Positions 4,547 to 17,431 of a stretch of DNA of 37,474 bases are shown here, in pieces (position 1 is the first letter of the stretch; every line of letters starts with the position of its first letter). Location of the stretch: NCBI GenBank assembly GCA_026705345.1, contig JAPPAV010000053.1, forward strand, positions 1 through 37,474, read 5' to 3'. Under the pieces are notes generated by a model. The model saw nothing but the letters and a program-made list of their open reading frames with translations. It did not search any database and was not told the origin of the DNA. Made by a program: the position numbers and the translations under genes. Source of the stretch: Gammaproteobacteria bacterium. Its GTDB lineage: Bacteria; Pseudomonadota; Gammaproteobacteria; Pseudomonadales; Azotimanducaceae.

Positions 4547-5359
4547 TCACCGGATCTCGATCTGCACTTCGGTGATGTGCTGCTGAGTCTGGTGGTCGAA
4601 GGCATGGTAGAGCTCGCGGTAGAGCCGTTCTGTGTAGACGAGGCCCTTTTCCTTGGCGCGTTCCTCCCAGCGAAGCTGTTGCCAGCCGCTGTTGGGCTCG
4701 TGGGGGAAAGGACCCTCGTAGATCAGGCTCGAGAACCTCATCGCCGGGTAACGCTTGATCTGGAAACCGCTCGCCGGGTCGACCTCGGTCCCGTCTTCCA
4801 CGATGACGCCGGCGTCGAAGACCATCGGTCCCTGGGCGCCTTCGATCCAGTTGTAGAGGTAGACCTCGCTCGGCGTATCCGCCTGTAACGCCACGCCGGC
4901 GGTTCTCACGAAGTCCCACAAGCCAGCGGTATCCATGTAAGGAAGCATGTCTCGACCGAGGTTGATCGGTTCGTCGCTGGACTGCACGAGGAAAGTGGTT
5001 GGTGGGTACTCCTTGACGCCGACGTCATAGATGGCGAAATGCTCGCCCTGTTCAACGGGTTGGAGCAGTCCGCCGCGAACCGCGGAGACGATGCGGGCCG
5101 TTTCCATGCCGCTCGTCTGCTCGGTGTCGGTGTCCACCTGGCCGCAACCCGCCAGCAAGGCGAATGCCGTCGCAACGAGACCGTAGGGGCGACCCTTGTG
5201 GTCGCCCGCTCGACCCTTGTGGTCGCCCGCTCGGCCCTTGTGGTCGCCCGCTCGGCCGTTGTGGGCGCCCGTGCCGCCGAACCGGCGCGGTTCTTCGTAC
5301 GTGGACGGGCGAGGGTGTGCCCGCCAGGCTCGACACCACGATGTCGATGGACGTGTCAT
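4547..5359 (-). CDS. Putative lipoprotein with GyrI/SOUL-like domain; repeat-derived leader
   Basis: The last 199 residues start at a lipobox Cys (LLAGC, Cys codon 5146-5144) and would form an outer- or inner-membrane lipoprotein. The body has paired strand-rich halves and a stretch around FSSLIYEGPFPHEPNSGW that resembles GyrI-like/SOUL small-molecule-binding folds; that call is weak. The 5' end is odd. There is no ATG, GTG or TTG close to the lipobox. The nearest in-frame ATG (5359) gives a 71-residue leader containing the heptapeptide GRAGDHK three times, translated from a tandem DNA repeat. Either the leader has been rebuilt from repeat DNA or the original start was lost. It lies divergent to the prenyl synthase. 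Confidence 0.6.
   Translation of the reverse strand: MTRPSTSWCRAWRAHPRPSTYEEPRRFGGTGAHNGRAGDHKGRAGDHKGRAGDHKGRPYGLVATAFALLAGCGQVDTDTEQTSGMETARIVSAVRGGLLQPVEQGEHFAIYDVGVKEYPPTTFLVQSSDEPINLGRDMLPYMDTAGLWDFVRTAGVALQADTPSEVYLYNWIEGAQGPMVFDAGVIVEDGTEVDPASGFQIKRYPAMRFSSLIYEGPFPHEPNSGWQQLRWEERAKEKGLVYTERLYRELYHAFDHQTQQHITEVQIEIR
5183..5271 (+). repeat. Tandem array of GTAGGGG-family hairpins, GGGCGACC type
   Basis: One full 26-bp copy (5183-5208) is followed by three 21-bp partial units (5209-5229, 5230-5250, 5251-5271) built on CCCTTGTGGTCGCCCG. The 21-bp period is a multiple of three, so on the minus strand it reads through without a stop as GRAGDHK repeats. It sits across the leader of the lipoprotein gene. 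Confidence 0.85.
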
Positions 5360-5441
5360 GGGCTGATAGGTTGACAGATGCGGCCGTATTGCGCGACGTT
5401 GGGGCCTCGTTTTTGAGGCTTGATGCCATTCCCATCGCACG

Positions 5442-6323
5442 ATGCGCCCCGAAACAGCCCCGACGACCACCCCTCGGCAACGCGTCGACCTCGTCTTGGA
5501 GCGAGTGCTCTCAACGACGACCGATGTTCCGCCAAGACTTGCGGATGCCATGCGCTATGCCGTACTCGGCGGCGGCAAGCGCATCCGCCCCCGACTGGTC
5601 TACGCCTCGGGGCGACTGGCGGGTGCGCCGATCGGGGTGCTGGATCACGCTGCGGCCGCCGTCGAGATGATTCACGCCTACTCGCTCATACACGACGACC
5701 TGCCGGCAATGGACGACGACGAGCTGCGCCGGGGTCGCCCCACGGTCCACGTCGCGTTCGACGAAGCCACGGCGATACTCGCCGGCGACGCCCTGCAGGC
5801 GCTGGCGTTCGAGACGGTTTGCGACGGGGGTGTCGACGCTGCCGTTTCCTTGCTATGGGTTCGACTCCTCGCCCGGGCGGCGGGCGCCGAGGGCATGGTG
5901 GGCGGCCAGGTCCTCGATCTCGAGGGAGAGACCCGGCGTCTCGATGCGGCCGAACTTGAACGATTGCATCGCCGCAAGACCGGCGCCCTGTTGCACGCCG
6001 CGGTGGCAATGGGCGTCGTGGCCGGAAACCTGCCGAGTGCGAAGGCCGACGCCCTTGACCGGTTCGGCAGGGAGATCGGTCTGGCGTTTCAGATTCACGA
6101 CGACGTGCTCGATGCGACGGTTGCGACGGAGTCCCTCGGCAAGCGCCAAGGTGCGGACGCTGACCGGGGCAAGTCGACCTACGTCACGGTTCTCGGCCTC
6201 GAAACCGCGCGCCAGGAAGCTGATCGCCGAATGACAGGTGCACTCCAGGAGTTGGCGTGCTTCGGAACCGAGGCGGAAGAGCTCGCCGAGCTCGCGAAGT
6301 TCATCGTGTTGCGGCGGCGGTAG
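5442..6323 (+). CDS. ispA: Polyprenyl synthetase, farnesyl-diphosphate synthase type
   Basis: A 293-residue trans-prenyltransferase that condenses IPP with DMAPP and GPP to give FPP in the cytoplasm. Visible motifs are GGGKRIRP (43-50, IPP binding), the first Asp-rich motif DDLPAMDDD (85-93, in the HAYSLIHDD context typical of bacterial FPP synthases) and the second Asp-rich motif FQIHDDVLD (216-224). The length is normal. ATG at 5442 has no strong ribosome site. The stop TAG lies inside a degenerate hairpin repeat (6320-6345). The next gene uses FPP, and the IPP isomerase and mevalonate genes lie in the same region, so its role in isoprenoid supply is well supported. The exact chain length is not proved. 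Confidence 0.93.
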   Translation: MRPETAPTTTPRQRVDLVLERVLSTTTDVPPRLADAMRYAVLGGGKRIRPRLVYASGRLAGAPIGVLDHAAAAVEMIHAYSLIHDDLPAMDDDELRRGRPTVHVAFDEATAILAGDALQALAFETVCDGGVDAAVSLLWVRLLARAAGAEGMVGGQVLDLEGETRRLDAAELERLHRRKTGALLHAAVAMGVVAGNLPSAKADALDRFGREIGLAFQIHDDVLDATVATESLGKRQGADADRGKSTYVTVLGLETARQEADRRMTGALQELACFGTEAEELAELAKFIVLRRR

Positions 6324-6392: not shown

Positions 6393-6418
6393 CGGGACGG
6401 GACAAGCCCCGTCCCCAC
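6393..6418 (-). repeat. GTAGGGG-family hairpin repeat, minus orientation
   Basis: A GGGACGGG-type hairpin with ACAAG loop, read on the minus strand, ending CCCCAC in place of CCCCTAC. It is in the 192-base gap between the prenyl synthase and the squalene synthase genes, which holds nothing else I can identify. Confidence 0.75.
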
Positions 6419-6515
6419 GGGCAACTTTCAAACTGATACATTTCCAATGGTTTGATTTTCCAACCGTAACCGGCCATGGTGAAGTCCGGTTGTGGAACGA
6501 CGTATTAGGTACCCG

Positions 6516-7547
6516 ATGGCTGTTAGCGCGGATCCCTTGACGTACCAGTCCGAGGTCTTGCCGGGTGTGTCCCGGACGTTTGCGCTGACCATCCCCCAGC
6601 TTCCCGAGCCGTTGCGCCACGCTGTCGGAAACAACTATCTGCTGTGTCGAATCGCCGACACCGTCGAAGACGAACCAACCCTTTCCCTCGAAGAGAAGGG
6701 CATCTACCTGGATCGGTTCGTGGACGTCGTCGAGGGCCACTCATCCGCTCGGTCGTTCGCGGCGGATCTCCATCCACGGCTGTCCGAAGGGACGATCGAG
6801 GCGGAACGGAATCTCGTCGCCAATGTCGACACGGTCGTCGGCGTCACCCACGGGCTTCGGCAGGCGCAACGGCGCGCAATCGAGCGCTGCATCCGAATCA
6901 TGGCGCCCGGAATGGCCGAGTTTCAATCCGAGTTGACGGTGCGCGGGCTCCAAGACATGCGCCAATTGGATCGCTATTGCTACCATGTCGCCGGCGTGGT
7001 CGGCGAGACAATCACGGAACTGCTGTGCGACTACTCACCCGTCATACGGGGTCGGCGGGACCAGTTGCTCGGGTTGTCCCGTTCGTTCGGCCAGGGACTG
7101 CAGATGGTGAACATACTCAAGGACTTCTGGGAAGACCGGGAGCGGGGTGCCTGCTGGCTGCCAAGGGACGTGTTCGCGGACGCCGGCGTGGACCTGTCGT
7201 CCGTCCGTGCAGGCCAGACCAGCGCCCGGTTCGTCGTTGCCTTGTGCCGGCTGATCGAAGTGGCGGTGCGGCACCTGGCCTCCGCGTACCGGTATACGAT
7301 GCTGATTCCCGCCCGGGAGACCGGCATTCGCCGATTCCTGCTGTGGGCCTTGGGCATGGCGGTGCAAACCCTGCGCCGGATCCGCGAGAACCCCACCTTC
7401 AGTGGCGGCGACCAGGTCAAAATCTCACGCAACGAGGTACGTGCCATCGTCTTGGCGACCAGCGCGCTCGTGCGCTCGGACCGGGCTCTGCGGTGGCTCT
7501 TCGAGAGCGCCGTCGACCGAATACCGCGTCCTGCCAACGCAACGTGA
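6516..7547 (+). CDS. Squalene/phytoene synthase family protein (likely squalene synthase)
   Basis: A 343-residue head-to-head prenyl transferase. It has the SRTFALTIP segment (19-27) and two Asp-rich motifs: DTVED (48-52) and DFWED (203-207, in MVNILKDFWEDRERG). It also has YCYHVAGVVGE (154-164), typical of the family. These motifs bind Mg-diphosphate and join two FPP (or GGPP) molecules. The FPP-type synthase directly upstream favours squalene over phytoene. ATG at 6516 is chosen (AGG about 8 bases upstream); GTG at 6492 is an alternative that adds 8 residues. Its stop overlaps the GTG start of the next gene by 4 bases, so the two are probably co-translated. No squalene cyclase or epoxidase is in the window. 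Confidence 0.9.
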   Translation: MAVSADPLTYQSEVLPGVSRTFALTIPQLPEPLRHAVGNNYLLCRIADTVEDEPTLSLEEKGIYLDRFVDVVEGHSSARSFAADLHPRLSEGTIEAERNLVANVDTVVGVTHGLRQAQRRAIERCIRIMAPGMAEFQSELTVRGLQDMRQLDRYCYHVAGVVGETITELLCDYSPVIRGRRDQLLGLSRSFGQGLQMVNILKDFWEDRERGACWLPRDVFADAGVDLSSVRAGQTSARFVVALCRLIEVAVRHLASAYRYTMLIPARETGIRRFLLWALGMAVQTLRRIRENPTFSGGDQVKISRNEVRAIVLATSALVRSDRALRWLFESAVDRIPRPANAT

Positions 7548-8335
7548 CGGTGACCAACCTCGCCGAGAGAACTTACCGAAGTCGGCGATCACACCGGCAA
7601 GGCGCGCGGCTGGCAGCGTCCCTCGCCGTCGCGACTCTCGCCGTCTCCGCCGCGCACGCGGAGCCGTCGATCGATTCGGCGCGCACGGCCTTTGACGAGG
7701 GGCGCTATCTTGAGGCCGCTGACATGGCGGAGTCGCTGGATAGCTCGGAAGGTTACGCGTTGGCGGCTGAAGCGTTGGCGGTGCACGGGCACTACATTGC
7801 CGCGGATGCTGACAAGCAACCGCTTCTGCAACGCGCCCGCAGCCTGGCAGACAAAGCCGTTGCGCTCGACGAAACAAGCGCCGAGGCCCGGTTTCAGGTC
7901 GCTCACGCCATGGGGCGCTACGCGCAGAGCATCGGGCCAACGCAGGCCCTGCGACAGGGCTTTGTGGGTGGGTCGCGCGAGGCGATCGAGGCCGCACTCG
8001 AGATCGATCCCGACATGGCCGAGGCCCGGTTGAGCTTGGCGTCCTGGCACGCCGACGTGGTGGACGGCTTCGGTCGGATGCTCGGCAGAATGACCTACGG
8101 CGCGACCGTGCAGGCCGCGATGGACAACTACGAGCGGACCCTCGAACTCGCCCCGGACGAGAAGGTTGCCTACGTCGAATTCGCTCGCGGGCTAGCGGCA
8201 ATCGGGGGCCGCAAGGACCGCGCCCGGGTCCGGGAGCTCCTCGCCCAGGCACTGGAGCTACCGGTGCGCAACGACTTCGACCGAATCATCCACGAACGCG
8301 CCACGGCGCACCTGGAGAGCCTCGACGCACCGTAG
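7544..8335 (+). CDS. Secreted alpha-helical repeat (TPR-like) protein
   Basis: A 263-residue protein with a signal peptide: Arg-rich start, hydrophobic stretch AASLAVATLAVS and a probable cleavage after AHA. The mature part is nearly all helix with TPR-like spacing (EARFQVAHAMGRYAQ, EARLSLASWHAD, and a later ALxLAPDEKVAYVEFARGLA unit), so it probably acts as a periplasmic scaffold or binding protein. GTG at 7544 overlaps the squalene synthase stop (GTGA); GTG at 7550 is an alternative. Coupling to the squalene synthase suggests a role in handling its product, which is an inference. The stop TAG at 8333-8335 lies inside a GTAGGGG repeat, so the C-terminus may have been set by repeat insertion. 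Confidence 0.75.
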   Translation: MTVTNLAERTYRSRRSHRQGARLAASLAVATLAVSAAHAEPSIDSARTAFDEGRYLEAADMAESLDSSEGYALAAEALAVHGHYIAADADKQPLLQRARSLADKAVALDETSAEARFQVAHAMGRYAQSIGPTQALRQGFVGGSREAIEAALEIDPDMAEARLSLASWHADVVDGFGRMLGRMTYGATVQAAMDNYERTLELAPDEKVAYVEFARGLAAIGGRKDRARVRELLAQALELPVRNDFDRIIHERATAHLESLDAP

Positions 8336-8403
8336 GGGACGGGCTTGTCCCGTCCCGTTTCTTTGCCACCGATGCCGGCGCGGGCGACCACAAGGGTTGC
8401 CCC
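8332..8403. repeat. Inverted pair of GTAGGGG hairpins
   Basis: A forward GGGACGGG-type copy (8332-8357) faces a degenerate reverse GGGCGACC-type copy (8381-8403). The spacer contains ACCGATGCCGG (8368-8378) and TTTCTTTGCC, both found in inverse form near 32115-32236. The forward copy supplies the stop codon of the preceding gene. Confidence 0.8.
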
Positions 8404-8669
8404 GACGAGGTCCCGGACATCGAACGCGCCCGGGTCCGTCCGTAGGGGACGGGCTTGTCCCGTCCCGTGTTGCGTGTCTCGAAGCGAGTGCGGAAACCCG
8501 GCGCGGGCGGGGACAAGCCCCGCCCCTACGGGGTCTCCGCCGCGTGACGGGGCAGTCCGTTGGGGCCCCGTCCCGCCAGCCCAGCCCGAGGTGCGTTCAG
8601 GACGGACGGCGGCACCCCAGCGAGGACAAGCCGCCCCTAAGGCCCCGTCGGTATTCCGCGCCGACTCCA
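8336..8669. other. Repeat-filled gap between converging genes
   Basis: This 334-base stretch between the 3' ends of converging genes holds two hairpin pairs and, at 8621-8640, a degenerate reverse copy (GAGGACAAGCCGCCCCTAA). The open frames crossing it are low-complexity readings of the repeats. I see no gene and no T-tract terminator. Confidence 0.7.
8442..8529. repeat. Inverted pair of GTAGGGG hairpins
   Basis: A forward GGGACGGG-type copy (8442-8467) faces a reverse GGGCGGGG-type copy (8504-8529), so the pair is bounded by GTAGGGG and CCCCTAC. The two members have different stem sequences. Confidence 0.85.
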
Positions 8670-9941
8670 CTAGAAACTGTAAACGACCCCGACCTCCACG
8701 AAACTGTCCCGGCGTGTCTCGTACAGAATGTCCGTGGGATCCAGTTCGCGCAACGCAATGGCCTCGAGCCTTAGCGACCAGCGATCCGCCAACCGGCGGT
8801 TCAATTCGGCCGAAAACACCCGTGAGTCGTGGTCCGCCCCCTGCAATGTGCTGACCAGCAGTTCCGTTCCCTGGACATCGTTGAACGCCAGTCTTGCCCC
8901 TAGGAAAAGGTCGTTCTCGAATTTCGTGGTCGACCGGATGCCGCGGTCGTCGTAGGACCACTCCGTTAGCACGGTGATGTCCAACGCGGATCCAAACACC
9001 GAATAGAACGAGTACTCGCCCCCCAGCACGAACGACGAGTACGGTTCTTCGCGACCGAGTCGATTGAACATCCCGGACCTTTGGATGGCTTCGAGCTTCA
9101 ACAGCCACGCGCCCAGGGTGAGCTGGCCATCGAGCCCTAGCTGGCGAATTTGTCGGTAGTGCGGGGCCAGCGCGATGTCACCGTCGGCCCGGAACGCGGG
9201 GATCAAGAACGGCTCCCGGCTCGTGCCGTCGAAGGCGCTAATACCGAAGTCCAGCGCGCCGACCGTGTGGCTGTATCGCGCAGCCACGTCGACGTGTCGT
9301 TCCTCGGCACCGCTCTCGTAGGTAGCGAGGTCGGCATCCACGAGCCATGGAAACCGAAGCCGGCCGGACCGTCCGGGAAAGGTTCGTTGCCGGTGAAACG
9401 GCATTCCGAGCAGTTCGACGACGCCCCAGGTTGCCGCGTACGTGAAGTGACCCATGAACTGGCCCAGCTTGGACTTCTCGTCGGGGTGTTCCACCAAGTC
9501 GATCTGATTGACGATGTCGACGAGGTTGTTCGACTCCACGACACCCCAGAAGACGCGGTCAACGCCGACGCGCAACTCCCACTGTGCGTCGCCCGCTTCG
9601 CCGAGAAACAATGCGTAGGCCTCGTGCACATCGGCGTGGGTCCGACGGGGATCCTCGCCATCGAACCGGTAGAACGGCGATAGCGTGAAGCTCCATCCCG
9701 TCTGACTCTCCACGTACAGGCTCGGCATCGCGACCAGACTGCTTGGCTGCGAACCCTGCCCCGGGTGGGCGGGAGATTCCGGAAAGCGCCGCGCCTCCAC
9801 ACCGAGGCTGCCGGAGAACTCGACGTGGGCGATGCCGCTGGCGGCGGCTGGGTCGCAGAGCGTTAACGCCAAGAGGAGTGCAATGACCCGACCGAAGGTG
9901 ACGGTTTGTTGTCCGCCGACCCCGGCGATGCCGCGAACCAT
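8670..9941 (-). CDS. Predicted outer-membrane beta-barrel protein
   Basis: A 423-residue protein with a signal peptide (VIALLLALTLCDPAAAS) and alternating polar/apolar strands throughout, ending VGVVYSF; a C-terminal aromatic residue is the usual signal for BAM-mediated outer-membrane insertion. There are Tyr/Trp-rich strand ends (SLYVESQTGWSFTLSPFYRF). It has no motif I can tie to a named family; it may be related to DUF1302- or alginate-export-like barrels. The ATG start directly follows the stop of the LolA-like gene (TAGATG). It is the last gene of the exporter operon, and its place suggests it is the outer-membrane end of the same transport route. Substrate unknown. Confidence 0.75.
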   Translation of the reverse strand: MVRGIAGVGGQQTVTFGRVIALLLALTLCDPAAASGIAHVEFSGSLGVEARRFPESPAHPGQGSQPSSLVAMPSLYVESQTGWSFTLSPFYRFDGEDPRRTHADVHEAYALFLGEAGDAQWELRVGVDRVFWGVVESNNLVDIVNQIDLVEHPDEKSKLGQFMGHFTYAATWGVVELLGMPFHRQRTFPGRSGRLRFPWLVDADLATYESGAEERHVDVAARYSHTVGALDFGISAFDGTSREPFLIPAFRADGDIALAPHYRQIRQLGLDGQLTLGAWLLKLEAIQRSGMFNRLGREEPYSSFVLGGEYSFYSVFGSALDITVLTEWSYDDRGIRSTTKFENDLFLGARLAFNDVQGTELLVSTLQGADHDSRVFSAELNRRLADRWSLRLEAIALRELDPTDILYETRRDSFVEVGVVYSF

Positions 9942-10760
9942 CTAGCGTGCGCGTCTTAAGCCGGTCTGCGTGAACTCCATGGCAGCCAGATCCGTCTGAA
10001 ACTGGTAGTCGGTCCAGGTCAGGACCGTGCTTTTCCCGGTCAGGTGGTTGACCATGTTCATGTTGCTCGCCTGCCAATAGCGATCCAGGTAGCGCTCGTA
10101 GCCGTCGACGGTCAGGGTTTTCAGGTGCGCGTTCTTGCGGTCGAAGTACTCGACTTTCCAGAGCCGAAGCTCCTCGGTGTCCTGCCAGACGACTTGCCGG
10201 CTGTAGCCGGACTTGCCGTCCACCGGAAAGCGTTCCACGACGGTGCAGGTCAACTCGCCGCAGGGCTCGTCGTGCAGGTAGCGGTAGGTGAACCGCTCGA
10301 CTTCCGGCGGGCTCATGTCTTCGTAGGCGAACTCGCTGCCCATGAACGAACCGGACCGGTTCGCGGAGCTGATCCGCTTGACCCGTTTCAGGGCCGGCAG
10401 GTAGAGCCATTGATCGTCGGGCTTGTCCGTGTGGCCGTGAATGAGAAAGGCCGTGCCTTGGACATCTCGCGGCTCGTCGAAAACGAACAAGCTCCGGTCC
10501 CCGTCGGCATCGACTTCCATCACCTTGACGCGCAATGCCCGGCGGCTCTCGCGTCCCTGCTTGTTGCGCAGCACCATGACCTGGCTTGCCGTGAAGTTCT
10601 CGAACCCGTCCTTTTTGGCCCTCGCCTCAAGGGCGATATCGAGACCCTTCTGCTCGGCTTCGGTGAGTTCCGAAGCCCCCGTGCTTAGGGCTAGCAGTAT
10701 GGGGATGATTGCGGCCAGGCCGTGCGCAATGCGTTGGAGCGCAAAGGGATTCGACGTCAT
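9942..10760 (-). CDS. LolA-like outer-membrane lipoprotein-sorting family protein
   Basis: A 272-residue exported protein with signal peptide (HGLAAIIPILLALSTGAS). The mature region carries DDQWLYLPALKRVKRI then a GSFMGSEFAYEDM stretch, the hallmark of the LolA-like family (PF17131) that accompanies MMPL/RND exporters. Such proteins have a half-barrel that can carry lipid in the periplasm. ATG at 10760 has a strong GGAGA ribosome site within the end of the RND gene and overlaps its stop by 4 bases (ATGA). Flanked by the exporter and a beta-barrel, it probably shuttles the exported lipid between membranes. It is not the canonical LolA of lipoprotein sorting. Confidence 0.88.
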   Translation of the reverse strand: MTSNPFALQRIAHGLAAIIPILLALSTGASELTEAEQKGLDIALEARAKKDGFENFTASQVMVLRNKQGRESRRALRVKVMEVDADGDRSLFVFDEPRDVQGTAFLIHGHTDKPDDQWLYLPALKRVKRISSANRSGSFMGSEFAYEDMSPPEVERFTYRYLHDEPCGELTCTVVERFPVDGKSGYSRQVVWQDTEELRLWKVEYFDRKNAHLKTLTVDGYERYLDRYWQASNMNMVNHLTGKSTVLTWTDYQFQTDLAAMEFTQTGLRRAR

Positions 10761-13054
10761 GTTTTTCTCCGGTCGAGGGCCAGGAGCAGCGGCGGCAGCA
10801 GCAGGAAGTCGGCGACCAGTGCCAGCACGAGGGTGTTGGCCACCAATATGCCGAGCGTCCAGCTGACCTCGAAACCCGACGATGCAAACACCAGGAAGCC
10901 GGCCACAAGAATCGCCGTGGTCGTCCAAAGGGCTCGTCCCGTCGCCTGGAACGTCGCGCGTATGGCATCGGCCGGAGAACGCCCCTCGTTCCGGACACGC
11001 CGGTACTTGGTGAGGAAGTGCGTCGTATCGTCAACGACGATCCCGAAGGCGATGGCGGTCATCACCGAGCCGGCAAGGCCGACTTGGCCGACGAGATAGC
11101 CCCAGACCCCGAAGCTCATGGCCGCGGGTAGGTAGTTGGGGATCAGGCTGATCACGCCGAGGCGCCAGCTTCGCAGCACCAGGAGCAAGACGATCGAGAT
11201 GCCGCCCATGGCCAGGATCGTGGCTTGCAGCATGCTCTCGATGTTGCGCTGCGACAGGTGTGCAAAAGTGATCGTGAATCCGGTCGCCGGCGTGACGAGG
11301 TCCGGCGTGTTGTCCTCCAGCCAGTCCTGTGCCCGCGCATCGAAATCGCGTTGCTGGCGTGCGGTCAGCCCGCCGCGTGCCATCGCGGTCAACCGGGTCG
11401 CCGACTTGGCGATGTCGATACGGTTGTTCAGGTCGCTGCCGAAGGGCAGAGACAACTCGTAGATCAGGAGATACTGCGCGGCCAGCGCCCCGTCCTCGGG
11501 AATTCGATAGTACGAGTCATCGTCGCCGTGCATGTTCTTGTTCAAGCGCTTCATGATGTCGGGGAACGCCTGGACGTGGCTGACCTCGTCTTGGGCGCGC
11601 AGCCATTGGGCGAAGCCCTCCACGTCGCGCAGGTAGTCCGGGTCGGTGATGCCGCCCTCTTCGCCCGAGTCCAGGGAATACTCCCAGGATTCGAGGCCGG
11701 TCAGGTTTTCGACGATGAAGTCCGTGTCGCGCCGGAACTCGTAGCGGTCGTCGAAGTACTTGGTCCAATTGTCGGTGAACTCGAGCTGTGAGATTCCGGC
11801 GATCAAACCGACGGTCACCAGCGACATCACCCAGATGAGCGTCGTGCGGCGCGCGATGACGAAACTCGCCAGGCGGTCGAGGAACACCCATTTGCCGCCG
11901 CCGCGACCGGGGCGCAGGGGCAGGATCGCGAGCAGCGCCGGCAACAGGGTCATCGAATAGACGAACGCGCACATCACGCCGAACGCCACCAGGTTGCCCA
12001 GTACCCGGAACGGCGGCGCCTCCGACGCGTTCAGGGTCAGGAACGCAATCGCCGTCGTGACGGATGTGAGGAACACCGGGTAGGCGTTTTCGCGCATCGA
12101 TTGCATGATCGCGTCGCGTTTAGCGAGGCCTTTTCCTAGGCCCGCCATGGCCCCCGAGACGATGTGAATGGAGTCGGCGACCGCAATGGTCAGGACGATG
12201 AGCGGGACCCCGGCGTTGACCGGATTGAACACGGTGCCGACCCAACCCGCGAATCCCAAAGTCGTGTTGATCGTGAACATGAGCACCGCGACGACGGCGA
12301 CCGTCGCGAGGGCCGAACGCAGAACGGCGATCGTGACCAGGACGATGACCAGGAAGGCGAAGGGCGTCAGCTTCTCCATGTCGTCCTTCGTGGCGTCCGC
12401 GAACGCGCGATTCAGCGGCACGTCGCCGGTGACGTGGAAGCCCACCTCCGGGTGCTCGCTGCGATACTCGTCGAGAACCTCGTTCAAGTGATCGGTGATC
12501 TCGATCACCGCGGCGTCGGCGTCCTCGGGCAGGGCGAAGGTGATCGCCAGTGCCGCTACGCGCGCGTCGGCCGACACGAGGCGACCGGCGATCTCGGGCG
12601 CGTTCATGGCGATTTGCTCGACACGCGCCAGGGCGTCGTCGGTGAGAGTCTCCGCACCTTCGACCAGCGGTCCGACGGCGAGGTCGTCCTCGACGGACTC
12701 GCTGTGGTTGTAGTTGGTCAGCGAATCGACGCGGATCGAGTGCGGCGTCAGCCAGGCGGCCTGTGTCAACGACTCCAAGAGGGCAAGCGTCTCCCGGGTG
12801 AAGACCGATGCGCCGGGGTCCACGGCGATCAATGCCGTGTCGGACTCGGTGTACGTTTCCTCCAACGCCTCGTAGGCGAGCAGTTGGGGGTTGTGCTCGT
12901 CGAACAGCACGCGGTGGTCGTTCGTGACGCCGATGAACACGGCACCCGCCGTCAGCGCGAGCATGGCGAGCCCCGCCACGCCGACCACGGGCCAACGTCG
13001 GTCCAGGACCGCCGATGTGTAGCGGTCCCACGACACCCGACCCGCTTCAGCCAT
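10757..13054 (-). CDS. RND/MMPL superfamily exporter
   Basis: A 765-residue inner-membrane protein with the MMPL layout: one N-terminal helix, a large periplasmic domain, five helices, then the same again. Each half has the conserved acidic motif in a membrane helix: VADSIHIVSG in the first and VVDDTTHFLTKYR in the second. Length and layout fit exporters such as HpnN-type hopanoid transporters and other lipid RND pumps. They work from the proton gradient. ATG at 13054 is preferred (TGGG just upstream); GTG at 13063 would add three residues. It is followed by a LolA-like carrier and a beta-barrel, and preceded by isoprenoid genes, so a hydrophobic isoprenoid substrate is a fair guess, not shown. 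Confidence 0.92.
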   Translation of the reverse strand: MAEAGRVSWDRYTSAVLDRRWPVVGVAGLAMLALTAGAVFIGVTNDHRVLFDEHNPQLLAYEALEETYTESDTALIAVDPGASVFTRETLALLESLTQAAWLTPHSIRVDSLTNYNHSESVEDDLAVGPLVEGAETLTDDALARVEQIAMNAPEIAGRLVSADARVAALAITFALPEDADAAVIEITDHLNEVLDEYRSEHPEVGFHVTGDVPLNRAFADATKDDMEKLTPFAFLVIVLVTIAVLRSALATVAVVAVLMFTINTTLGFAGWVGTVFNPVNAGVPLIVLTIAVADSIHIVSGAMAGLGKGLAKRDAIMQSMRENAYPVFLTSVTTAIAFLTLNASEAPPFRVLGNLVAFGVMCAFVYSMTLLPALLAILPLRPGRGGGKWVFLDRLASFVIARRTTLIWVMSLVTVGLIAGISQLEFTDNWTKYFDDRYEFRRDTDFIVENLTGLESWEYSLDSGEEGGITDPDYLRDVEGFAQWLRAQDEVSHVQAFPDIMKRLNKNMHGDDDSYYRIPEDGALAAQYLLIYELSLPFGSDLNNRIDIAKSATRLTAMARGGLTARQQRDFDARAQDWLEDNTPDLVTPATGFTITFAHLSQRNIESMLQATILAMGGISIVLLLVLRSWRLGVISLIPNYLPAAMSFGVWGYLVGQVGLAGSVMTAIAFGIVVDDTTHFLTKYRRVRNEGRSPADAIRATFQATGRALWTTTAILVAGFLVFASSGFEVSWTLGILVANTLVLALVADFLLLPPLLLALDRRKT

Positions 13055-13086
13055 GCAACCCACGCATCATTGGGAAACGCGCGGAC

Positions 13087-14259
13087 CTACCACGGATTGG
13101 AGCGGGCCGACAGATAGTGATCCGGCATTCGGTAGCGATCATCGGGTCTATCGTAGACGGAAATGTCCAACAGCTGCGAAAAGTTGGTCAACCGCACCTT
13201 CTGCCTTCCTTGGACAAACCGCTGGAGTCGCTGACGGACCCGAAAGGCGGCCAACGAGCCCATCGTGTTCATTTTCGGAAACGCGAGCTGGTCGGCGAGT
13301 TCGTTGCCAATCAGCGAACGCGAAAGCCGGTAGGCGAGTTTCATGACTTTCCGTTGCTCGCGCTCCCCCTCGATACCTGCCGTCAAGGGAATCGCCCCGA
13401 TCAAGGCGTTCGCCATGCTGGCCGCGTCCGAATCGGGCGCTGGCTCGCACAGATGGGCGATTTCGAATATCCGCCGCGCATGGTCCCGGTCGACGAACAG
13501 GATGCCCTCCGGGACTCCCATGACCACCCCGGCGTAGCGCCAGACCTGCATGACGCTGGCCTCTTCGTTTTCGTTGAACACCGCCCCGACCAGCTTGGCG
13601 TGTTCCAGCAGGCGCATGGAAAACACCGTGGTCGCGAGGCCCAAATGGGCCGCGCTGATCGGCGTGCCGTAGTGCTCGACATCCCAAGCGCCGGAATTCG
13701 CCAACAGGTGACGGACGCGCGCGTGCACGAACCTGAGACGCGTCGACAGTTTCCAGCCGTCGCCATCCCGCTCCATGCCGCCCGGGAAGAACACCTCCAT
13801 GAGATGCCGATTGTTCTGCATCAAGCGCCGACGGGCGGATTCGGGGTTCAAGACCCGACCGGTCGTGGCGAACGACTTCGAGATGAGCGTGGAGAACCCC
13901 TCGATCAGGACACCGCAGACGAACGCGACGAGTACATTGGCGGCGTTGACGTTGAAAGCCCGCACCGCCGGCACATGCGCCTCGAAGTCGAGCCACGGCG
14001 GCGGACCCACCTTGTCTTCGAAGAAATGCCGAAGCGTCGTCGGCGCTTGGCGAAGTGCCTCGGCATCCTGCTCGATGCCGGCGCGGATGGCACGCTGCAA
14101 CTGATCGCTGGCAAGGTCCGCCACGTCCTCGATGACGGGATCCAGATCGGGATCGCCGATTCGCGTATGACGTATGTACGCATCTGCCAGCGCAGCATCG
14201 ACGCCCCTAGCCGTGGCGTACCCCTCCACATAGGCGCCTGGGGTTTGCAGCGCAGTCAC
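13087..14259 (-). CDS. DUF2236 (MpaB / rubber-oxygenase catalytic domain) protein
   Basis: A 390-residue, mainly helical protein of the PF09995 family, which includes fungal MpaB and latex-clearing Lcp, heme enzymes that cut or oxidise isoprenoid chains. The family signature is seen at RLRFVHARVRHLL (174-186; R176, H179, R183), with further conserved His at 205 and 220. GTG at 14259 overlaps the HMGR-MVK stop by 4 bases (GTGA), a strong sign of coupling, and the RND gene follows about 30 bases after its stop. The context of isoprenoid synthesis upstream and an exporter downstream makes oxidation of a polyprenyl or squalene-type product a reasonable hypothesis. Longer in-frame readings to 14790 were rejected as antisense of the kinase domain. 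Confidence 0.85.
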   Translation of the reverse strand: MTALQTPGAYVEGYATARGVDAALADAYIRHTRIGDPDLDPVIEDVADLASDQLQRAIRAGIEQDAEALRQAPTTLRHFFEDKVGPPPWLDFEAHVPAVRAFNVNAANVLVAFVCGVLIEGFSTLISKSFATTGRVLNPESARRRLMQNNRHLMEVFFPGGMERDGDGWKLSTRLRFVHARVRHLLANSGAWDVEHYGTPISAAHLGLATTVFSMRLLEHAKLVGAVFNENEEASVMQVWRYAGVVMGVPEGILFVDRDHARRIFEIAHLCEPAPDSDAASMANALIGAIPLTAGIEGEREQRKVMKLAYRLSRSLIGNELADQLAFPKMNTMGSLAAFRVRQRLQRFVQGRQKVRLTNFSQLLDISVYDRPDDRYRMPDHYLSARSNPW

Positions 14260-16541
14260 GACACCTCGAACGCCAAGGCGTCGTAGCCTGCATTCTTGAT
14301 GCCGGCGAGCACCGAGTCCGTGCCGTCCGGACACAGCGCCACGATGGACCCGCCGCCGCCGCCGCCGGTCAGCTTGGCCCCGACCGCACCGTGCCGCCGC
14401 GAGATTTCGACGAGTTCCTCGAGTTCCCGGGTCGAGATCTGCAAGGCGTTGAGAAAACCGTGGCAGAGGTTCATCAACTCGCCTAGGTCGGACAGCGCGC
14501 CGTCGCGCGCGGCGTCCGCACCGGCACTCGTGAGCATCTCGATCTGATCGAAGATGCCGTCGTAGCGCGATGCGTTCCGGCGCCGGGCCTGCGCCACGCC
14601 GGCAACCGTCTTGGCGGTGAGGCACTCCTTGCCGGTCATGCCGATCACCAACGGCAGGGGACGCTTTAGCTCGATCCCGGCGAACGAGGCATCGCGACCG
14701 TTCGAGGCCGCTCGGAACAATAAGGTGGTGCCGAACGTGGCCACCGTGTTGTCGACGCCGGAAGGCGTGCCGTGGGCCTCCCGCTCGCACTCCAGGGCGA
14801 AGTCGTTGATCTCCGGATCGGACAAATCCAACGCGAAGTGCCGATCCAACGCCCTGATCACGCTGACGGCGAGCGCCGCCGACCCCCCGAGCCCCACGGC
14901 CCGCGGAACATTCGGGAACACTTCGATGGTCATCGACCGGTCGCCGAGGTCGAGTCGTTCAAGCAACACCGCGAGAATGCCCGCCGCGCCCGTGGGGTGT
15001 TCGCGAACCGGCGCGACCCGCTGCTCGACGCCCCACCGGGGGATCAGCAGTTGCACGCCGTCGCCGGTGTCGACCACGCGCGACTCGACGGCCAAGGGGA
15101 TGGGGGCCGCCAATGCCGACCGGCCATACACCACCGCATGTTCCCCGAGCAGGATGACCTTTCCGCACGCCGAACTCCGGGGTTCGGTGTCCTCGTCCGG
15201 CGCATGGTCGGTCTTTCGGGTTAGCCGACGGACGATCTCCTCCGCCTTCCACACCTTGATCTCGCCGCTCTCGATCAGCCCGTCGACGACCTCGTCGAAG
15301 TATTCCTCGGGAACCCCGGCAGCGGAGGCTACGCTGCGCGCATGCAGAGTCATGTGATTCTGCTGGATGCCCGCCGTCGCCAGAGAACGCAATGCCGCAT
15401 AGTTCTGCGCCAATCCAACGGCGCCGATGACCCCGGCGAGTTCGGCGGCGTTGGGATTGCCGAGCAGCCGGTGGCTCAGCCGCACAGTCGGATTGGTCTC
15501 CAGCGAACCGCCCACGGTACCGACCTTCATGGGCATCTCGATGTGGCCTTCGAGGTCGCCGTCGTCGTTGGCGAACCAGCGCGTTAGCGCGCGATACTGG
15601 CCGCTGCGCGCCGCGTAGGCGTGGGCTGCCGCTTCGATGGCGCGGAAGTCGTTTCCGGTGGCGATGGCGATCGCGTCGACACCGTTCATGATGCCTTTGT
15701 TGTGGGTGGTTGCCCGGTACGGATCCACCAAGGCCAGATCGTTGGCCAAGATGATCCCATCGCGAACGGCCGTGCCCGCGTAGTCCTTCATCGCCAGGTT
15801 TTCTACGGGAATACGCACCCTCGCCCGCACCAGGGCACGATCGGTCAGGTTCGACAGGATGCGCAGGAAGACCCTTCCGCCGGTGATCGCCTCGACGAGG
15901 CTTGCGACGCCCTCGCACATGCCGTTGACGATATTGGCGCCCATGGCTTCGCGCGTATCCACAAGTAGGTGCACGACGATCATGTCCCGTTCCGGACCCT
16001 CGGGATCCCCGCCCTCCGGCGCCCGGTGATGGAATACCTCCACGTCGCGCACGCCGCCTCCCCTCGCCACCATCTTGGGGTGCAGGCTGTTGGCCAGGTT
16101 GAGAATGTCCTCTTTGCGTGCCAGCAGGGTCTCGCGGGCCCGTGGAACATCCGCCACGTCGACGACCTGCACCTGGCCGATCAGCACCGGGTCGGTGACC
16201 TCCGTGCTGTAGCCGCCAGACAGCCGAGCGGTCCGGGCCGCTCCGGAAAGGCCGGCGACGATGGAAGGCTCCTCCACTGAAAGCGGCACGATCACCTCCC
16301 GACCGTCGACCAGGAAATTGAGGCCGACGCCCATGGGTAGTCCGAACACCCCGACGACGTTCTCGATCATCTTGTCGGCCACGTGGAGCTTCAACGTGTG
16401 CGAGCCCGCGTCTAGCGCGGCCAGGTCTTCTTCGGTCAGGGCCGTACGGTCGCGAAGTGCTTCGATGCGCGCCCCTACGCTCAGCTTGAAGAAGTTGGGA
16501 ATCCGCGATCCCGAGTTGGCGGGCGCGTTGTCGGCCGTCAT
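14256..16541 (-). CDS. Fused class II HMG-CoA reductase - mevalonate kinase
   Basis: A 761-residue bifunctional protein of the mevalonate pathway. Residues 1-440 are HMG-CoA reductase, class II (bacterial) type: EEPSIVAG with catalytic Glu91, AMGANIVN (199-206), HNKG with Lys282, GNDF with Asp298, and the late catalytic His396 in QNHMTLHAR. Residues about 457-761 are a GHMP mevalonate kinase: GKVILLGEHAVVYG (460-473), the ATP loop GLGGSAAL (550-557), GTPSGVDNTVA with catalytic Asp597, and KLTGGGGGGS near the end. A short charged linker (441-456) joins them. All catalytic residues appear present, so both activities are expected: HMG-CoA to mevalonate to mevalonate-5-phosphate. ATG at 16541 has a GGGGG site. 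It leads into the DUF2236 gene. Confidence 0.95.
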   Translation of the reverse strand: MTADNAPANSGSRIPNFFKLSVGARIEALRDRTALTEEDLAALDAGSHTLKLHVADKMIENVVGVFGLPMGVGLNFLVDGREVIVPLSVEEPSIVAGLSGAARTARLSGGYSTEVTDPVLIGQVQVVDVADVPRARETLLARKEDILNLANSLHPKMVARGGGVRDVEVFHHRAPEGGDPEGPERDMIVVHLLVDTREAMGANIVNGMCEGVASLVEAITGGRVFLRILSNLTDRALVRARVRIPVENLAMKDYAGTAVRDGIILANDLALVDPYRATTHNKGIMNGVDAIAIATGNDFRAIEAAAHAYAARSGQYRALTRWFANDDGDLEGHIEMPMKVGTVGGSLETNPTVRLSHRLLGNPNAAELAGVIGAVGLAQNYAALRSLATAGIQQNHMTLHARSVASAAGVPEEYFDEVVDGLIESGEIKVWKAEEIVRRLTRKTDHAPDEDTEPRSSACGKVILLGEHAVVYGRSALAAPIPLAVESRVVDTGDGVQLLIPRWGVEQRVAPVREHPTGAAGILAVLLERLDLGDRSMTIEVFPNVPRAVGLGGSAALAVSVIRALDRHFALDLSDPEINDFALECEREAHGTPSGVDNTVATFGTTLLFRAASNGRDASFAGIELKRPLPLVIGMTGKECLTAKTVAGVAQARRRNASRYDGIFDQIEMLTSAGADAARDGALSDLGELMNLCHGFLNALQISTRELEELVEISRRHGAVGAKLTGGGGGGSIVALCPDGTDSVLAGIKNAGYDALAFEVS

Positions 16542-16634
16542 GGATGAAACCCCCTTGTTGTGCGAGTTCTACCGCATCGGACAACGTCCCTACATCGTAA
16601 CACGCTGTCCTTGCGGTGGTTTCTCCCGCGAGCG

Positions 16635-16660
16635 GTAGGGGCGGGGCTTGTCCCCGCCCG
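16635..16660 (+). repeat. GTAGGGG hairpin repeat, GGGCGGGG stem type
   Basis: A perfect stem, GGGCGGGG with CCCCGCCC, around CTTGT, sits in the 126-base gap between the IPP isomerase and HMGR-MVK genes. If the two are one transcript, this hairpin lies inside it. Confidence 0.85.
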
Positions 16661-16667
16661 AAGCCGC

Positions 16668-17237
16668 TCAGGACGGTTGAATGCGAGTAAGGAACTCCTT
16701 CGTCAGCCGTTGCCATTCGATCTTCAGCCACGGCGTGAAATGCCCAGGCGCAGCTTCCATTTCCTGGTCCAGTTCGCGCCGCGAGATCCACCGCCACTCG
16801 GCGATCTCCGACGAATTCACCTGCGGTACCTCACCGCCGTGGCTCACGAATACGGAACACAGTTCGAACTCGCTGCCGAGGTCGCCAAACGACGCCTGGT
16901 ACTGGAACTTGAACAGGAACTCGGGCGCAACGGAGAGCCCCAGTTCCTGGCCGGCGCGGCGCACCACGGCTTCCTCAAGGTCCTCGCCGAGCCGAGGATG
17001 GGAGCAACAGCCGTTCGACCAGTACCCCGGCCACAACCGCTTGCTCGCGTGCCGTCTCTGCAAGAGGGTGTCGCCGTTGCCGTTGAAGACGAACAGCGAA
17101 AACGCCCGGTGGAGCGCACCCGCGCCGTCGTGACACGATTTCTTGTCAAGCGTGCCTACCTCGCGATCCTGCTCGTCGACGAGGATCAGCGGTTCGTCGT
17201 CGCTGGATACGACCTCGAATCGTGCTCCGGGCTCCAT
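16668..17237 (-). CDS. idi: Isopentenyl-diphosphate delta-isomerase, type I
   Basis: A 189-residue Nudix-fold enzyme that interconverts IPP and DMAPP. The type I pattern is clear: NGCCSHPR with catalytic Cys78 and metal ligand His80, metal ligands His36 and His43, the Nudix-like segment GEDLEEAVVRRAGQELG (84-100) and SEFELCSVF with Glu123/Glu125 for metal binding and proton transfer. ATG at 17237 begins the conserved part; no good ribosome site is seen, and the in-frame upstream sequence is repeat-derived and was not used. It is first in the minus-strand isoprenoid series. Idi is essential where IPP comes only from mevalonate, which agrees with the adjacent HMGR-MVK. Confidence 0.93.
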   Translation of the reverse strand: MEPGARFEVVSSDDEPLILVDEQDREVGTLDKKSCHDGAGALHRAFSLFVFNGNGDTLLQRRHASKRLWPGYWSNGCCSHPRLGEDLEEAVVRRAGQELGLSVAPEFLFKFQYQASFGDLGSEFELCSVFVSHGGEVPQVNSSEIAEWRWISRRELDQEMEAAPGHFTPWLKIEWQRLTKEFLTRIQPS

Positions 17238-17291: not shown

Positions 17292-17368
17292 GTGGGGGCG
17301 ACCCTCGTGATCGCCGTGACCGCGACCGGCGGTGGTTCGGCGCGGGACGGGACAAGCCCGTCCCCTAC
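17292..17368. repeat. Inverted pair of GTAGGGG-family hairpins
   Basis: A degenerate forward GGGCGACC-type copy (17292-17316) faces an intact reverse GGGACGGG-type copy (17343-17368). Confidence 0.75.
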
Positions 17369-17395
17369 GGACTGCCCGTCGCGGGGCGGACCCCC

Positions 17396-17421
17396 GTAGG
17401 GGCGGGGCTTGTCCCCGCCCG
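17396..17421 (+). repeat. GTAGGGG hairpin repeat, GGGCGGGG stem type
   Basis: An intact copy with 8-bp stem and CTTGT loop, 10 bases beyond the 3' end of the crotonase gene. Confidence 0.85.
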
Positions 17422-17431
17422 CGACTCGGTA

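Follow-up and report, generated by a model that had tools for sequence, protein, structure and literature searches.

A conserved gene unit of a DUF2236 protein, an RND transporter, a LolA-like protein and a beta-barrel, and its putative role in the oxidation of squalene and export of the product

Gene content and layout of the locus

The window analysed here is the whole 37,474-nt stretch of contig JAPPAV010000053.1 (assembly GCA_026705345.1), which comes from a gammaproteobacterium of the Azotimanducaceae with a genome (G000) of 5.07 Mb in 151 contigs. Between 8670 and 17237 it carries a run of minus-strand genes in which a DUF2236 protein stands between isoprenoid synthesis genes and a transporter set consisting of an RND protein, a LolA-like protein and a beta-barrel. 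A first-pass annotation had described this run as a candidate operon of six genes for the synthesis, oxidation and outer-membrane export of an isoprenoid lipid. We confirm that observation; the case for it is stronger than was claimed, and its borders are redrawn: the unit reaches beyond the window. The bounds, strands and junctions below were read straight from the window sequence.

17237-16668, minus strand: Idi type 1, isopentenyl diphosphate isomerase (TIGR02150, 142 bits against an NCBIfam cut-off of 105.8; NUDIX passes its Pfam cut-off)
16541-14256, minus strand: HMGR-MVK, a fusion of hydroxymethylglutaryl-CoA (HMG-CoA) reductase and mevalonate kinase (TIGR00532, 371 bits, and TIGR00549, 228 bits, both above cut-off; PF00368 and both GHMP kinase domains at or above Pfam cut-offs)
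14259-13087, minus strand: DUF2236 / MPAB_Lcp protein, 390 amino acids (aa), GTG start (PF09995, 69 bits against a cut-off of 23)
13063 (GTG) or 13054 (ATG) to 10757, minus strand: RND/MMPL (HAE3-like) inner-membrane transporter (PF03176, 105.7 bits)
10760-9942, minus strand: LolA-like protein (PF17131, 196 bits against a gathering cut-off of 30)
9941-8670, minus strand: outer-membrane-type beta-barrel, 423 aa (predicted structure; no Pfam match)
5442-6323, plus strand: IspA, farnesyl diphosphate synthase (NF045485, 335.9 bits against a cut-off of 275; PF00348 over cut-off)
6492-7547, plus strand, convergent: SQS/PSY, squalene/phytoene synthase (PF00494, 190 bits)
7544 (GTG) or 7550 (GTG) to 8335, plus strand: TPR-like protein (TPR matches below Pfam cut-offs)

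On the minus strand, the six genes from Idi to the barrel were found with the open reading frames (ORFs) and families that had been assigned to them, and from HMGR-MVK onwards their junctions are as tight as was claimed. The GTG of the DUF2236 gene overlaps the TGA of HMGR-MVK (GTGA), the RND and LolA-like genes overlap at ATGA, the barrel gene follows the LolA-like gene without a gap, and the distance from the DUF2236 gene to the RND gene, given earlier as about 30 bases, is 23-32 bases. Idi is separated from HMGR-MVK by 126 bases that contain a palindromic repeat. The convergent group of IspA, SQS/PSY and the TPR-like gene was likewise found on the plus strand, the last two genes touching each other (GTG 7544 overlaps the SQS stop; otherwise the start is GTG 7550). 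By reading, the N-termini of the TPR-like and LolA-like proteins are signal-like, and a comparison of the TPR protein with the PDB gave a best match of only E 0.011. A sigma-70 promoter scan found 0 sites compared to 1.0 in shuffled sequence, and 4 terminator-like sites were found compared to 7.2 in shuffles. G+C-rich dispersed palindromic repeats of the GTAGGGGCGGGGCTTGTCCCCGCCC type occur at 6393-6421, 8330-8535, 16633-16661 and 17343-17423, that is, in the gaps around Idi, in the barrel/TPR gap and in the IspA/SQS gap. Tandem 21-base units (CGACCCTTGTGGTCGCCCGCT) lie at 5169-5273, upstream of IspA and within a minus-strand ORF at 4547-5551.

Conservation of the unit and its isoprenoid neighbours

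We performed a single profile scan of genome contigs with the DUF2236 alignment, which returned 346 relatives, and used the best 80 (L087-L166, 51-96% identity); because the two peptide patterns had been derived by aligning relatives of the window itself, close relatives are favoured among the 80 loci. A locus was called complete when one tblastn piece covered 60% of each protein, with any length of flank. The DUF2236, RND, LolA-like and barrel genes were all present in 34 of the 80 loci, and 32 of these 34 had them in that order on one strand, so that synteny is conserved more than expected by chance. Seven NCBI phylum labels were represented among the complete loci: Pseudomonadota (16, all Gammaproteobacteria), Nitrospirota (6), Acidobacteriota (4), Binatota (3), Myxococcota (2, titled Deltaproteobacteria), Verrucomicrobiota (2) and Gemmatimonadota (1). 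When only the 65 loci with 5.5 kb or more of downstream sequence are considered, an RND gene in the same orientation was nearby in 50, a LolA gene in 42, a barrel gene in 39 and all three in 35. Pairwise distances of the four core proteins intercorrelated at 0.81-0.90, compared to 0.13-0.25 with phylum label. Because the core distances covary and the phylum clustering of DUF2236 is not clean, we infer that the genes of the unit have been inherited together and have at times passed from one phylum to another.

In three loci (L098, L101 and L148) the SQS, TPR, DUF2236, RND, LolA and barrel genes all lie on one strand, with the TPR gene between SQS and DUF2236. The convergent layout of the window may therefore be a rearranged form, and that of these three loci is perhaps the uninverted one. 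A Nitrospinae bin (bin107, L146) carries multiple DUF2236 and RND matches in series, and six Paracoccaceae bins (L110, L115, L116, L117, L119 and L124) carry a close DUF2236 relative with no exporter genes nearby. A plasmid-borne copy was considered and rejected: relatives of the DUF2236 protein in the plasmid collection (27 records, none covering 80%) and of the RND protein (31 records, 12 covering 80%) were all distant, at less than 60% identity. An anti-phage role was also rejected, as three proteins scanned with PADLOC gave no match.

The borders of the unit were apparent from closer relatives, a set of 58 genomes with that of the window included. A DUF2236 match was present in 14/58, and 11 of these had a copy of at least 60% identity, which we treated as the orthologue. 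HMGR-MVK matched in 31/58 genomes, comprising 16/16 of the genus, 12/21 other family members and 3 weak, kinase-only matches farther out. Among the 11 orthologue genomes, HMGR-MVK abuts DUF2236 in 6 (G000, G002, G003, G004, G009 and G011), lies about 310-350 base pairs (bp) away in 2 (G005 and G014) and is on a separate contig in 3 (G007, G008 and G021). The locus of G007 and G008 reads Idi, DUF2236, RND, LolA, barrel, with convergent TPR and SQS genes and no HMGR-MVK. Idi adjoins DUF2236 in L073 and L074, and its neighbourhood is kept in part of the genus. Conversely, G006 has IspA, HMGR-MVK and Idi grouped without the unit. Three loci were less complete: that of G009 had no barrel match, that of G021 had only DUF2236, RND and LolA among the query genes, and that of G002 was interrupted by a contig end. 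Since G007 and G008 have the unit without HMGR-MVK and G006 has HMGR-MVK without the unit, and since the genes that supply isopentenyl diphosphate (IPP) vary by lineage, HMGR-MVK and Idi are neighbours, the former lineage-specific, and not part of the core. A single conserved operon of all six genes was therefore rejected, as HMGR-MVK is missing from this place in G007, G008 and most other loci; what recurs of the proposed six-gene order is its four-gene core.

Isoprenoid genes were nonetheless common beside the unit. Unguided clustering of neighbours, which used greedy longest ORFs and not gene calls, gave 17 clusters, part of which were identified; these included IspH (12 loci), DXS (6) and HpnE (6), and the representatives of HpnE, HpnD (L123), IspH and DXS were over their NCBIfam cut-offs. 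A directed count in the flanks of the 34 complete loci found SQS in 20, IspH in 12, HMGR-MVK in 10, DXS in 7, Idi, HpnD and HpnE in 6 each, and IspA in 4. At least one of these eight genes was present in 28/34 complete loci, compared to 14/46 incomplete loci. A squalene-forming enzyme was present in 26/34 complete loci, either SQS (20) or HpnD with HpnE (6), with no overlap, and the linkage of squalene-type synthesis to the unit that had been read from the window alone thus extends to most complete loci. The HpnD/HpnE route ends at squalene. Because SQS and HpnD/HpnE are non-orthologous routes that swap beside the same oxygenase and exporter genes, the families involved point to squalene as the common substrate, and this swap is the chief ground for that choice. 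The SQS/PSY gene of the window is the sole match in its genome, and its best NCBIfam match is TIGR01559. Two further genes recur in the neighbourhood, in most cases on the other strand: one for a periplasmic binding protein (in 12 loci) and one for a sensor histidine kinase (in 9). The loci include L113, L128, L132, L133, L135, L141 and L158, and several are from Nitrospirota; both genes might be regulatory.

The source of IPP in the window's lineage was assessed by searching 38 genomes for IspH, HMG-CoA synthase and HMG-CoA lyase. IspH was found in 0/16 genomes of the genus (G000-G015) and in 3/9 other family genomes searched (one of the nine, G018, has neither IspH nor HMGR-MVK); in 13 genomes from other families of the order it was over cut-off in 12 and a fragment in one. 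HMGR-MVK (some copies partial) and diphosphomevalonate decarboxylase (mvaD; one fragment) were each present in 16/16 of the genus. The HMGR, MVK and mvaD functions were all over cut-off in G000, where a gene resembling phosphomevalonate kinase lies beside mvaD (best TIGR01220, 68 bits, under the cut-off of 165.7). Of the remaining mevalonate genes, mvaD and one resembling phosphomevalonate kinase occur elsewhere in the genome, but no HMG-CoA synthase was found: PF01154 had no match in G000, PF08540 matched 0/16 of the genus, and a divergent query from G019 also matched 0/16. The HMG-CoA lyase model NF004283 did not establish a leucine route to HMG-CoA: it matched all 38 genomes at E 0.001 and 16 over cut-off, with G000 at 184 bits compared to a cut-off of 246. 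The genus seems to rely on a mevalonate route that lacks a recognisable HMG-CoA synthase; this observation covers G000-G015, including the window at 14256-16541 and L067:9711-11617. The divergent protein of G019 (L210:1291-2793; 500 aa) resembles HMG-CoA synthase but falls below the NCBIfam cut-offs; HMGR-MVK and mvaD lie on its contig as well, together with a strong match for triterpene cyclase.

These results bear on whether HMGR-MVK and Idi serve housekeeping functions and merely happen to adjoin the unit, a reading that is compatible with the pathway proposed below and that we regard as evenly balanced. The variable distance of HMGR-MVK from DUF2236 in the 11 orthologue genomes argues for it, as does the lack of IspH in the genus, because of which the mevalonate route must serve all isoprenoids. 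On the other side, supply genes recur by the unit in other phyla, so that shared regulation is plausible.

All 80 records are metagenome bins, with titles that begin MAG. The bin prefixes were jk18x (20), SB06xx (15), RHO (12), p16x (10), COS (5), CO36 (3), IRC, Plut, APA and CAR (2 each), and TsSOB, 287ce, bin107 and MEX2 (1 each), with three UUID names. A paper, a bin prefix or a contig name ties 45/80 bins to sponges. Two jk18x7 bins, including that of L129, are Ircinia bins in the available part of PMC9531527, and the other jk18x bins were assigned by prefix; the name 287ce belongs to a specimen of Petrosia (PMC8941161, as far as its accessible text goes); and RHO, COS, IRC, CAR and APA appear to fit, by prefix, the species list in the accessible part of PMC8163846. 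The contig name of the TsSOB bin contains lac_sponge. The remaining 35/80 bins may be of sponge origin as well. The DUF2236 protein of the window is 97% identical to that of an RHO3 bin (L091), and given such near relatives the window itself would also appear to be sponge-derived.

The DUF2236 protein and the transport set

The DUF2236 protein passes the gathering cut-off of PF09995 (MPAB_Lcp_cat), and a profile of 37 sequences compared to the PDB matched the rubber oxygenase Lcp at E 2e-15, the next match being a designed protein at E 0.087. Its predicted model (predicted local distance difference test, pLDDT, 91.5) also matched Lcp best in a fold search (template modelling (TM) score 0.65-0.71, E ~1e-6; best 8e-7 at TM 0.68/0.71), followed by t-anethole oxygenase at E 4e-3. 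Its earlier assignment to an oxygenase family therefore holds: it is a relative of haem oxygenases that lies beside an exporter-type set. In Lcp, as described in the accessible parts of PMC5522427 and PMC6311187, His198 is the proximal haem ligand, Lys167 the distal ligand and Glu148 the likely base, Arg164 and Thr168 are essential or near-essential, and salt bridges join Asp56 to Arg195 and Asp60 to Arg202. Counted over 81 rows (the 80 loci and the window), the equivalent of His198 (H179) was His in 81/81, that of Arg164 (R145) was Arg in 78/81, and those of Arg195 and Arg202 were Arg in 81/81 each; over a 37-row alignment the equivalents of Asp56 and Asp60 were invariant (37/37). In contrast, the distal positions differed: Lys167 corresponds to Q148 (Gln in 81/81), Thr168 to N149 (Asn in 79/81) and, by sequence alignment, Glu148 to S129 (Ser in 79/81). 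The scaffold and haem site look retained, and the distal pocket looks altered in one consistent way.

Because these distal residues differ, with Gln, Asn and Ser in place of Lys167, Thr168 and Glu148, membership in Lcp was rejected. Compared to LcpK30 (PDB 5O1L/5O1M), the window protein shares the fold, the haem His and the equivalents of Arg164/195/202 and Asp56/Asp60; it differs in its distal pocket, in the lack of a signal peptide by reading, whereas Lcp works extracellularly according to the available text on that enzyme, and in adjoining isoprenoid synthesis and transport genes. MpaB and the Gordonia enzyme Nro1, which belong to the MpaB family, both cleave C=C bonds, and MpaB does so in a farnesyl chain within the pathway of mycophenolic acid synthesis (PMC12724181, in the parts available). 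Comparison with these two was by description only; the Pfam family name MPAB_Lcp is shared and the substrates differ. By analogy, the DUF2236 protein may cleave a C=C of squalene, perhaps at its terminal isoprene in the manner of MpaB. Within its class the clade is rare: of 369 Gammaproteobacteria drawn, the window's own genome alone scored highly (645 bits), with 5 others at 44-137 bits.

The transporter set is less readily assigned to a named system. BstABC sterol export involves an RND protein with periplasmic partners near triterpene genes. The resemblance of the locus to sterol and hopanoid transport, raised in the first-pass annotation, holds in layout, as here too an RND protein and periplasmic partners lie near triterpene genes. 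It does not extend to family membership: the RND protein scored 57.9 bits with NF052374 (cut-off 1100) and 105.3 bits with TIGR03480 (cut-off 751.85) for HpnN, and 28.3 bits with NF045600 (cut-off 1400) for BstA. An HpnN or BstA identity was accordingly rejected; the window set also differs in its use of a LolA-like protein and a barrel, and in the lack of a cyclase match in the 11 orthologue relatives. The RND protein is a member of the MMPL group and was also under the HAE3 NCBIfam cut-off. Solved relatives of the LolA-like protein are 3bk5 (E 6e-79) and 9tp6 (E 6e-32). The barrel sequence had 0 matches in the PDB; its AlphaFold model consists of strands (pLDDT 78.3), and in a Foldseek search it resembled porins and AlgE, with E 2e-9 at best and TM scores of about 0.4-0.6.

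MMPL/LolA-type sets recur with long hydrophobic molecules. On a Sulfitobacter plasmid an MMPL-LolA pair follows a type I polyketide synthase, and a Pseudoalteromonas plasmid carries another such pair. In Thalassolituus oleivorans, a protein combining MMPL and LolA-like parts was up 42-fold on the n-C28 alkane and a porin-like neighbour was detected only on that alkane, and both are taken as alkane transport components in the available part of PMC6304351. The window set shares with these proteins (TOL_3187/TOL_3188) the MMPL, LolA-like and porin-like parts tied to a long hydrocarbon. It differs in that Thalassolituus, an alkane degrader, has the MMPL and LolA-like parts in one protein, and DUF2236 is not mentioned for it in the text of PMC6304351 that was available.

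Proposed pathway and alternative explanations

On balance, the data favour a function in which squalene is oxidised, and probably cleaved, by the haem DUF2236 enzyme, and the product is exported through the RND, LolA-like and barrel proteins. The core would be a lipid cluster of sponge-associated bacteria, consisting of a squalene-forming enzyme, DUF2236 and the RND, LolA-like and barrel set, which the TPR protein would join in some Gammaproteobacteria and which would have spread among phyla partly by lateral transfer. IPP and dimethylallyl diphosphate would come from the host's own pathway, for which the gene content points to mevalonate (HMGR-MVK and Idi) here and to methylerythritol phosphate (IspH/DXS) elsewhere. 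Farnesyl diphosphate would be converted to squalene by SQS or by HpnD/HpnE, as their families suggest (HpnC was not searched for). The DUF2236 haem protein would then oxidise squalene, likely by C=C cleavage as in the Lcp/MpaB family, to give a more polar, acyclic nor-triterpenoid. The RND protein would lift this product from the inner membrane, the LolA-like protein would ferry it through the periplasm, and the barrel would take it up or release it at the outer membrane. The parts are known; their combination was not met in the searched literature, and both the chemistry and the direction of transport are deduced from gene company and fold.

Several findings weigh against this pathway. Of the 65 loci with sufficient downstream sequence, 13 lack all three exporter genes in matching orientation over some 6.5 kb (in four of them, L151, L154, L157 and L163, an RND match occurs on the opposite strand), and the DUF2236 gene of L119 lies beside unrelated genes, old-yellow-enzyme-like and glutamate synthase-like by reading of translations. 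None of the eight isoprenoid genes was present in the available flanks of 6/6 complete Nitrospirota loci, one of which (L135) has an upstream flank of only 99 bases. With 117.6 bits, the SQS/PSY of the window is under the squalene synthase equivalog cut-off of TIGR01559 (286.75), which leaves some room for phytoene or dehydrosqualene as its product. The altered distal pocket also counts here, as substitutions at positions 167, 168 and 148 abolish or sharply lower the activity of Lcp in the accessible parts of PMC5522427 and PMC6311187. As for lateral transfer, the DUF2236 tree was still clustered by phylum, with 11 label changes compared to 25.3 when shuffled and a minimum of 7, in a quick tree with taxa from submitters' bin titles, where misbinning and paralogues can add label changes and misbinning can mimic transfer. 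Finally, a triterpene cyclase (PF13243), sought in the 58 relatives and in 50 genomes of the 80 named loci, matched in 31 of the 50 (several weakly), among them strong matches in all the genomes with complete Nitrospirota units that were searched (five).

The cyclase matches, together with the likeness of the RND and periplasmic proteins to HpnN/Bst systems, would suit a different explanation, in which a sterol or hopanoid is modified by DUF2236 after cyclisation and then exported. Kelly et al. 2022 described laterally transferred steroid gene clusters (CSGs) in Ircinia symbionts of 10 phyla, with a core of ERG24, CYP51 and LSS (PMC9531527, in the portion available). Many of the strong PF13243 matches lie in reading frames of about 1150 aa, which fit the long LSS alignment of those clusters (3765 positions). 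The unit described here resembles the CSGs in host type, in several shared phyla, in lateral transfer and in a squalene precursor. It differs in its core genes, and the main text of that paper contains no word that begins with DUF, LolA or oxygenase. In addition, 19/50 named genomes had no PF13243 match, and the RND protein fell far below the HpnN and BstA cut-offs. Among the 58 relatives 7 matched PF13243, with 0/11 of those with a DUF2236 orthologue, and, judged by cyclase matches, a cyclic product is therefore unlikely in the window's lineage but may be formed elsewhere. Taken across all loci, we consider this explanation improbable.

Slightly more doubtful still is that the unit takes up or detoxifies hydrophobic compounds, isoprenoids or hydrocarbons, that occur in the sponge environment, with DUF2236 cleaving them and the RND set moving them. 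Lcp and the MpaB-family enzyme Nro1 break down C=C polymers (the latter according to the accessible text of PMC12724181), the Thalassolituus protein described above responds to an alkane, and some DUF2236 genes occur without the exporter set. Neither the absence of a signal peptide nor the squalene or IPP synthesis genes by 28/34 complete units, which catabolism would not need, fits this role. Cleavage by DUF2236 of a carotenoid-like product, made from phytoene or dehydrosqualene, is very improbable: PF00494 spans both synthase reactions and the window synthase is under the squalene synthase cut-off, but TIGR01559 is its best NCBIfam match, six units have HpnD and HpnE, a route to squalene, and the identified part of the 17 neighbour clusters included no carotenoid desaturase besides the HpnE type.

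Returning to oxidation and export of squalene, a more specific version can be put forward tentatively. In it, many unrelated sponge symbionts would share, through lateral transfer, a system that exports an acyclic lipid cleaved from squalene, a nor-triterpenoid, and would carry it because they live inside the sponge. The product could be a surface lipid or a molecule for the host or its neighbours, and possibly a bacterial source of sponge nor-terpenoids, with the DUF2236 clade bearing a Gln/Asn/Ser distal pocket as a new kind of squalene oxygenase.

No published account of such a cluster was found among the papers listed in a literature search that left out preprints and most subscription journals. 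If the proposed pathway is correct, sponge symbionts of multiple phyla would have in common a specific lipid route alongside the published steroid clusters, and squalene would have a fate other than cyclisation. A function would be provided for a DUF2236 clade and for a set of RND, LolA and barrel proteins, and the finding would bear on which partner produces the terpenoids of sponges.

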